Shown in pieces: positions 57,101 through 63,156 of a DNA stretch of 64,000 bases. Source of the stretch: Argopecten irradians (Eukaryota; Mollusca; Bivalvia; Pectinida; Pectinidae); contig NC_091138.1 of the NCBI RefSeq assembly GCF_041381155.1, positions 33,907,604-33,971,603 on the forward strand. Direction: 5' to 3'. Each line of letters opens with the position of its first letter. The stretch's first letter is position 1. The notes under the pieces were generated by a model. That model was not told the origin of the DNA, did not search any database, and saw only the letters and a list, made by a program, of their open reading frames with translations. The translations under genes and the position numbers were made by a program.

Positions 57101-60100
57101 GGTGAGACTTGAGTAGTGGAGCCACCTTTATCCAGTGTACTTACCTTAGATAGGTGAGACTGGAGGAGCGGAGCCACTTTTATCCAGTGTACTTACCTTA
57201 GACAGGTGAGACTGGAGGAGTGGAGCCACTTTTATCCAGTATACTTACCTGAGACAGGTGAGACTTACGGATCGGATTCAAGTGTACTTACAGGTGAGAC
57301 TTAAGGAGCGGATTCAAGTGTACTTACCTGAGACAGGTGAGACTTGAGGAGTGGAGCAGCCTTTATCCAGTGTACTTACCTGAGACAGGCGAGACTTTAG
57401 GAGTGGAGCCACCTTTAACATGTCCTTTGAGTGGAAGGCCACACCAGCACTATTAACCTGTCGGGCAAACACTCCACGACCTTGGAGCTCTAACACAAAT
57501 TTGGCCACTTCCTCTACTGGACCAGACACGGTTACAGTGTTTGTAGAGTTGTGGCATGCAGGCATGACCTCTCCTGGGCATTGGTCCATAGCTTCCTTCC
57601 ACGTAAGCCCTGTGGAAAAAATGTTGGATTAACTTAAATCTATTCTAGACTCTTCTCATATCTGATGTATCAAAATTCAATTACACATCTTCAAATGGTC
57701 TCACAAAATGAGTTAGAAGTTTCATTGAAATTTGTCCAGTAGTTTTGAGTTGTCTGAAGAAGATTTGCAGACAACAGACAGACAGACAAGACAATTATAG
57801 TATAGAACAAACGCCCATTTTGTTGCAGGGGTTATAAAAAGATAATTTTTCGATGTCATTTTGGTGGTCTTTAAAGACAATTTTGACTCTTATTTTGTTA
57901 TATAATGTTACCACAGATTATATAATGATTACCAACTGCTGCCATGCCCCCTGGTGGCAGTTTGGCCTCCTCTACACAGCGCCCTCTCCAGTAAGCAGCA
58001 AGAACAGTTTCCTCGGCTGTCAGTGAGCCATCAGCATAGCCACATCCCAATTCTCCCACAGAGTGGCCCAAGATGCCATCTGGTTTTATACCCATACATT
58101 GCAGCATGTCTGTGAGAGCTATCTGAATCAGGTCAAAGGTCATGATTAGTATATTCTTCAATGGCAAAGTCAAATGAAGAATAAAATATTATATCAGTCA
58201 GGAAAAAGCTCATGCTTAGTATATTTGGCAATGTCAAGGTCAAATAAAATATAATATACAATTTCAAGGTCAATGACATTTATATCAAGATGGACATTTT
58301 ACCTATCTGTTTGGTTTCAATTTGTCTGAAGATGGCTCAGAAGCCAAAAATAAGTGTTATGCATACCTGTATAGATGCCAGGGCCACAAATGAATGTAGA
58401 ACACTATCGTAGGTTTTCTCCTCCCCTTCCATCATCATCTTCTGCAGATCTAGTCCTTGTTTCTGGAGGATAGCATCACATCTTTGGATTGAGTGGCGGA
58501 ATACTTCAAATTTCATCATGGAACGTCCCATTCCTGGCCACTGTGAACCCATTCCTGAGTACACAAGCCACAGTGGTCGATCATTTACCACTGAACTGCA
58601 GTTCTGAAATTTGTTTTAAAAATTTTGCAGCTGTTGTTTTAAAAGACTTATAAAATTCTTGAATTTTTGGATTATGTAACTATTCAATCCAATAATATTA
58701 GATGCAAAATATTGAGAAACTTCTGAAAGGCAATGTTGACACAATGTAATGATTCAAAAGTATCTCATCTTGATTTATCTCTAACATTGTTGGAGTATGT
58801 TACATTCTGTACCATATTGTCTTCGCATTCATTACACTACATATGATTAATATCAGGTCTCTGGGTCTTGAAGTTCTTGAACAGGAGTCAAAAAGGAAAG
58901 TTGCTTACAAAAGAATTACATACATATTGCATTGTGTACTATGCAAGATGTCATAGGTGAAAGGATAAGATTTTGTATTGACTATTGTACTTTTAAACAA
59001 TAGATTTTGTCTCACCTTGATTTCCTGGAGCCCCTCTGAAGAATTAAGCACTGTATAGCCCCGTATGGGGTTGTGTGTAGGGGCGAAGTGAGCCGTCTGC
59101 TGCAGAAGGCACTGAAGGTGTACGTTATTGGCATTATTGCAAACAAGCTGGAACACAGATTCCAAGCCTTCTTTCGTCCTACTTGAATATGTGAATAAAC
59201 GTGGCAGTTTTTCTGCTGGGTGGGAATCAGATATCGGATGTTTATGTGCTGAAAACACAGCATGAGCACACAGGTTGCCAAGTCCATAGGAATTTAAGGC
59301 CACAATTCCGCTGTTGCCAGGTAACCGTGTCTTCTCCTCGACTACCTTTGCTTGGCCGCCAAGGATGGTAGCTTGGTTATTGTCCAGTGTACAGATATGG
59401 AGGTTTGGTGGAATGATGTCTTCTTCCATGGTCAGGATGAGTTTGGCAAGACCTACGAGATCTAGGGGAAAATATGAATCCGTTATTCACAAGAATTATT
59501 TTACCAATGGGACTAATTTGCATACCACATGATACACGATAACGTTTGCATAGGTTTGTTTGAGTTTTATGGCCCATCAACAACTAAGGTCATTTAGGGC
59601 CAAAATTGAACAATTAGAATGAATTGACGATAACCCGTACTAACGTTTCAACACCACTGCAGATACTAGTCATGGACAAATGTTATTGGGTATCACAAAT
59701 TAGTCCCATTATTCAAGATTTTCATCATGGTTTTAGGATACAAACAAATTAAGGTCTTAGAGACAAAAAGGATGTAAGTTTTATGTATCAGAAGCATCGA
59801 TCAGAAGCAGTAAAGACCAACAGTGTGATTTGTTAGTTTCTATATGATAAACCCAATCCAATACTAAGCCAGTCATGAGATCTGTAAAGGCAAGATTTAC
59901 AAAATCATGTGCACAACAGCATACAGAACTGATCAGGAGTGACAAAGATCATCAATATTCCTTAATTCATGGAAACTTCTTGACTTCAAATTTTCCATAG
60001 TTAAGTTTTTATTGAATTATTCATTGCCTTAACTTCTTTAATGTTTTCCTGTGGAGACTTTTAAATTAGTAATTTATCTAAAATTACGGTACAATGATGA

Positions 60101-63156: not shown

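Follow-up and report, generated by a model that had tools for sequence, protein, structure and literature searches.

We analysed a 64,000-nucleotide stretch of the Argopecten irradians genome (contig NC_091138.1, positions 33,907,604 to 33,971,603; hereafter the window), which carries on its minus strand a gene of 29 exons (63156..36835) with 7,452 nucleotides of coding sequence and no in-frame stop, encoding a protein of 2,483 amino acids. The model was rebuilt from open frames and splice-site scoring, with homology also steering the choice of exons, and it agrees with the uninterrupted frame of the same exon number and length reported in a preliminary description of the locus. That description had located the feature at 59016-63156, which holds for the ketosynthase (KS) and linker, encoded by exons 1-7, but not for the whole gene, which reaches 36835. 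An in-frame stop lies upstream of the chosen ATG, and the exon joins are consistent with alignments to solved FAS chains. Twenty-seven of the 28 introns start with GT, the exception being intron 15 (GC-AG). Intron 12 has the poorest of the 28 donors (GTCTCT), with a score of -4.5 that places it at the 55th percentile among same-strand GTs of the window, and reading past it soon leads to a stop; the other 27 donors stand at or above the 86th percentile, the GC of intron 15 itself being unscored.

Several introns and flanking regions have features of their own. From the end of exon 10, the 2,795-bp intron 10 contains a minisatellite of 43- and 52-bp units (54930-57417) derived from a repeat of the exon's 3' end together with its splice donor; the sequence (A/C)AGGTAAGT is present in 35 copies within this intron and in five elsewhere on the same strand of the window. 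An 87-bp unit repeated 3.3 times extends from the end of exon 6 into intron 6 (60114-60436), duplicating the 3' end of that exon, with its NIGH motif, and the splice donor; the motif is lost in the intronic copies. Open frames on the plus strand of intron 23 (41708-43020) encode a Pif1-type helicase 2B domain as well as an endonuclease/exonuclease/phosphatase domain, the latter below the Pfam cut-off, which presumably belong to a Helitron-family element. Elsewhere in the window lie a 5.8-kb GC-rich minisatellite with a 23-bp unit, 46- and 69-bp higher-order repeats and strong GC skew (3611-9436), a plus-strand open frame (22315-22638) in which a PDZ domain passes the Pfam cut-off, and a minus-strand tRNA-like gene (17479-17552; Rfam 34.1 bits) whose anticodon is ambiguous in ARAGORN.

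The assembly from which the window derives (845.8 Mb in 1,508 contigs, searched with match counts that are lower bounds) also contains a canonical FAS gene, referred to below as the own FAS. It lies on the same contig at approximately 1.639-1.668 Mb, some 32 Mb from the window gene, and its DTACSSS, EAHGTGT, KSNMGH and GFGGTN motifs are intact, as are GSGGVG and EIGK in the ER. Among the matches listed (at least four exon matches in the genome), these two genes are the sole carriers of the FAS_pseudo-KR domain. The KS family as a whole accounts for at least 40 exon matches, which we grouped into 13 loci; DTACSSS is read at the five non-window loci for which the tblastn table includes the nucleophile exon (L011, L023, L025, L026 and L027, the own FAS among them). 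A MAT query returned at least 20 matches: the window gene and the own FAS account for five each, and the other ten, at 26-32% identity, lie elsewhere, eight of them in large-frame PKS-like genes on two other contigs, C8 and C11. The acyl transferase matches in the eight PKS-like genes on C8 and C11 lie in open frames of 1,768-2,270 residues, one match containing a stop.

The window gene has the same domain order as animal FAS, including the own FAS (KS-MAT-DH-psiMT/psiKR-ER-KR-ACP-TE), and all 24 introns of a partial own-FAS model are matched in it in phase, 23 at the same alignment column and one two residues off. Given these findings from the genome, the coinciding introns included, the window gene is almost certainly a full-length paralog of the organism's own cytosolic FAS and, judged on the same comparison, is neither an allele of that gene nor its twin in the assembly. 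Both its domain set, with a FAS-type pseudo-KR, and its intron positions fit descent within the animal FAS family. In the assembled own FAS, we did not find the exon for the TE nucleophile, and a genome search with the TE of the window gene listed matches in the window only. The flanking TE exons of the own FAS are about 11 kb apart, with minisatellite where inspected (L009, L029; C5:1630001-1650000), and its last two TE exons look duplicated.

The KS and linker (residues 1-492; 59016..63156, minus strand) were assigned by Pfam and by alignments to solved FAS and to the own FAS. The KS is recognisable end to end and, judged by its residues, appears catalytically dead. In the alignment to solved FAS, with which that to the own FAS concurs, His170 (CAC, 61619..61621) lies opposite the nucleophilic Cys of DTACSS and Ser301 (AGT, 60512..60514) opposite the first catalytic His, that of EAHGTGT, while the second catalytic His is retained as His338 of NIGH (60401..60403). 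The preliminary description had read all three positions in this way from the letters. They correspond to Cys161, His293 and His331 of the murine KS, residues whose roles are described in PMC12267109. The damage extends to Ile333 (60416..60418), which occupies the position of the KSNxGH Lys, to the GFGGxN loop, which reads GLGNLC, and to the context of DTACSS. With the Cys, a His, the Lys, the DTACSS context and the loop all changed, the KS is not expected to condense, and we regard this as highly probable; the earlier proposal that the protein could not elongate chains by itself thereby gains from losses beyond the Cys and His on which it was founded. Overall, the window gene retains 137 of the 242 KS columns that are identical in human FAS and the own FAS (57%), with conserved columns kept at 10/28 positions in four active-site motif windows, picked after the sequence was seen, versus 127/214 elsewhere (Fisher p = 0.025).

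Pfam families above their cut-offs cover the KS (three families), acyl transferase, DH, FAS-type pseudo-KR, KR, ACP and thioesterase; the ER has no Pfam family listed and was recognised by alignment to pig FAS (2vz8) and a match to the ER chain 4w82. All remaining domains, like the KS, are encoded on the minus strand. The MAT (exons 8-11, residues 493-812; 54283..58603) keeps Ser592, Arg617 and His654 and has the motif GHSVGE in common with the own FAS. Likewise, the DH (exons 12-14, residues 812-1084; 51865..53850) keeps His885 and Asp1039, the KR (exons 21-23, residues 1856-2129; 43701..46129) keeps GGLGGFG, Lys1991, Ser2020, Tyr2031 and Asn2035, and the ACP (exon 24; 39496..39699) keeps Ser2149. 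All ten catalytic residues examined in these four domains are thus retained (3/3, 2/2, 4/4 and 1/1), the positions being those we take to be catalytic from FAS biochemistry, together with the own-FAS alignment. Exons 15-16 (residues 1084-1529; 49302..50996) encode the pseudo-methyltransferase and the pseudo-KR, the Pfam FAS_pseudo-KR family. The ER (exons 17-20, residues 1529-1855; 46736..48984) reads AGSDIG for GSGGVG, so that SDIG stands at the GGVG loop, and the alignment to 2vz8 places Thr1775 and Glu1799 opposite pig K1771 and D1797, which we take to be the catalytic ER residues. In the TE (exons 25-29; 36835..39153), Ala2294 (38103-38105) occupies the position of the nucleophilic Ser, a loss judged against solved vertebrate FAS TE only, and Asp2324 and His2465 are kept. 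By residue, then, KS, ER and TE are without essential positions and MAT, DH, KR and ACP keep theirs. In contrast to the own FAS, where the motifs of KS and ER are intact, the window gene is deprived of three things by which a working animal FAS is known: the KS Cys-His-His, the ER loop with its Lys/Asp pair, and the TE Ser. The catalytic loss, read from these alignments, is wider than the preliminary description had it, taking in the KSNxGH Lys, the GFGGxN loop, the ER and the TE nucleophile.

Conservation of the domains as wholes can be set beside this pattern. Where the own FAS and pig FAS have the same residue, the window gene shares it at 142/177 positions in the MAT (80%), 109/150 in the KR (73%), 69/109 in the DH (63%), 22/41 in the ACP (54%) and 86/217 in the ER (40%). 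Scores against solved chains are 447.8 bits for the window gene versus 475.7 for the own FAS on the MAT (2jfk), 285.2 versus 376.8 on the KR (5c37), 177.5 versus 241.4 on the DH (8zev), 335.5 versus 586.7 on the KS (3hhd) and 144.4 versus 442.3 on the ER (4w82). Conservation, best in MAT and KR and worst in ER, appears to match the expectation from the catalytic residues. The contrast as measured here is not a clean one, however: the KS at 57% is near the DH at 63%, and the ACP at 54% falls off the pattern.

The best solved relatives of the window protein are animal FAS and, for the stretch from MAT to psiMT, the sea-slug enzyme EcPKS1, on which that stretch scores 735.6 bits versus 719.2 on FAS. 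EcPKS1 and EcPKS2, from sacoglossan molluscs, are FAS-like, with an inactive ER and no TE, according to PMC7280274. EcPKS1 does make its polyketide, so its KS works; in this the window gene differs, since its KS is dead by residue, and it also has a TE domain. Across MAT-DH, the window gene stands closest to the own FAS at 59%, with pig FAS at 51%, EcPKS1 at 50% and EcPKS2 at 47%, and an eight-row tree of this region joins EcPKS1 and EcPKS2 at 95/100 and leaves the window gene beside the own FAS and pig FAS without clear placement. Mollusc AFPKs divide into clades, of which mo-clade 4 shows just KS-AT-TE by InterPro and is FAS-like, TE-retaining and biochemically uncharacterised, according to Lin et al. 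2024 (PMC10764717). The window gene is FAS-like with a retained TE too, yet unlike that clade, compared here by its description only, it also has a DH, pseudo-KR, KR and ACP recognisable by Pfam, and we dropped a mo-clade 4 identity for this reason. A divergent KS gene on another contig (L023; C2:49878001-49888000), with DTACSSS intact and a thioesterase match about 40 kb downstream, might be a mo-clade 4-like AFPK. A search for relatives in viral contigs with three exons of the window gene confirmed none.

Taken together, these features suggest that the second full-length FAS copy may serve as a helper enzyme, unable to make fatty acids by itself. The preliminary description had left a choice between a pseudoenzyme, a heterodimer partner of the true FAS and a modifying enzyme. 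The loss of ER and TE, the retention of MAT, DH, KR and ACP residues and the presence of one canonical FAS narrow these options toward a subunit that would carry and beta-process chains and depend on a KS from elsewhere, without settling the choice among them. Activity in beta-processing has probably been kept, and we put the probability that the window protein both beta-processes and needs a KS partner at roughly 45%. According to this view, its MAT would load malonyl or another acyl group onto its own ACP, another KS would supply the carbon-carbon bond, and its KR and DH would reduce and then dehydrate the beta-keto chain. With both its ER and its TE dead, the polypeptide would be expected to leave the chains on its arm hydroxylated or unsaturated, or to hand them to the partner.

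An obvious candidate for that partner is the canonical FAS gene in the same genome. The core of the animal FAS dimer is formed by the KS. Murine FAS chains are described as heterodimerising with truncated chains in PMC6173736, which cites mutant-complementation work by Rangan et al. (2001). With the KS as dimer core and such murine heterodimers on record, the simplest route would be for the window polypeptide to pair through its KS scaffold with a canonical FAS subunit whose KS condenses. That the partner is the canonical FAS specifically is a tentative idea, to which we give about one chance in three. More speculative, and on balance unlikely, is the fuller version in which some animals have a dedicated condensation-dead subunit, such as the window gene would encode, whose mixed dimer with the canonical FAS makes unsaturated or hydroxylated chains that the FAS homodimer cannot.

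The main rival to a subunit with a KS partner is a homodimer that processes beta-carbons on its own. Its MAT would load ready-made beta-ketoacyl or other acyl groups from CoA onto the ACP, KR and DH would convert them to 2-enoyl products, and the MAT would return these to CoA, with no need for KS or TE. The retained residues of MAT, ACP, KR and DH suit this scheme, which takes it that a MAT accepts beta-ketoacyl-CoA. The murine MAT takes methylmalonyl about as well as malonyl (PMC12267109), so this domain can be permissive. Arg617 and the GHSVGE motif shared with the own FAS are nevertheless what one would expect for ordinary malonyl loading, and the supply of beta-ketoacyl-CoA is purely hypothetical; we therefore consider this scheme improbable, at something like one chance in five.

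Somewhat less probable again is a regulator without catalysis, a pseudoenzyme retained because of its fold, which might, for example, titrate FAS subunits, malonyl-CoA or phosphopantetheinyl transferase. Three of the seven catalytic domains are dead, and pseudoenzymes often persist as partners. A pure scaffold, however, would not need intact MAT, DH, KR and ACP residues, yet all those examined are kept, and conservation is highest in MAT and KR.

The gene might instead be a young pseudogene, its function recently lost and its frame open by chance. The weak donor of intron 12, at the 55th percentile of window GTs, would fit such a history, as would the degraded KS, ER and TE. Against this, the hallmarks of a pseudogene are absent, with no stops or frameshifts in 2,483 codons; frameshifts were among the signs that the preliminary description had named as speaking against its proposal. 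When neutral drift was simulated, 0.02 substitutions per site brought a mean of 5.5 stops and left none of 200 runs stop-free, whereas 0.01 left 4.5% of 200 runs stop-free, so that the open frame is compatible with a loss of function dating back less than about 0.01 substitutions per site. Between the window gene and the own FAS, pS is 0.66-0.81, at or near saturation (dS is not computable in six of the nine domains for this reason). The corresponding pN stands at 0.26 for both MAT and KR and at 0.38-0.50 for the other domains, well below pS in all nine domains, in a ratio that combines the branches of both genes. The losses are also domain-selective. With pS near saturation, pN at 0.26-0.50 and a neutral frame prone to gain stops soon, long neutral decay is unlikely, a young pseudogene is in our estimation quite improbable, and the window gene is in all likelihood a retained functional gene.

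Altered KS domains occur in modular PKS, where KSQ keeps both His and KS0 keeps the Cys and loses His. Like these, the window gene combines a KS fold with altered catalytic residues in a multidomain synthase, but it is without the Cys, one His and the Lys. A KSQ-like malonyl decarboxylase, or a transacylase using His170, would accord with the replaced Cys and the one His kept in NIGH, but is very improbable. In the modelling of the murine KS in PMC12267109, the carboxylate is held by two residues, His293 and His331, a state compared there with a KSQ structure. In the window gene the first of these is Ser301, so that it does not show the KSQ pattern of a replaced Cys with both catalytic His kept, and the changed KSNxGH Lys (to Ile), DTACSS context and GFGGxN loop speak against such a decarboxylase as well.

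A subunit with an active KS as its partner has a bacterial parallel. KSbeta, the chain length factor of bacterial type II PKS, has a KS fold without the nucleophile and is the partner of an active KS; it is a stand-alone subunit, whereas the window gene encodes a seven-domain animal synthase with a proposed pairing. In searches of the open-access literature, mostly at the level of listings and abstracts, no description of a KS-dead animal FAS was recognised.

Animal FAS is understood as a homodimer with a full set of active sites on each chain. If a paralog that has selectively lost KS, ER and TE is retained next to an intact FAS, either the natural occurrence of FAS heterodimers or KS-free beta-processing by a FAS would become an idea open to direct test. 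It also implies that counts of animal KS genes include proteins predicted to be unable to condense. If the proposed pairing with the canonical FAS is correct, the two arms of the mixed dimer would differ, one being fully reducing and the other lacking ER and TE, and the arrangement would represent an animal type I counterpart to the KSalpha/KSbeta pairing of bacteria.
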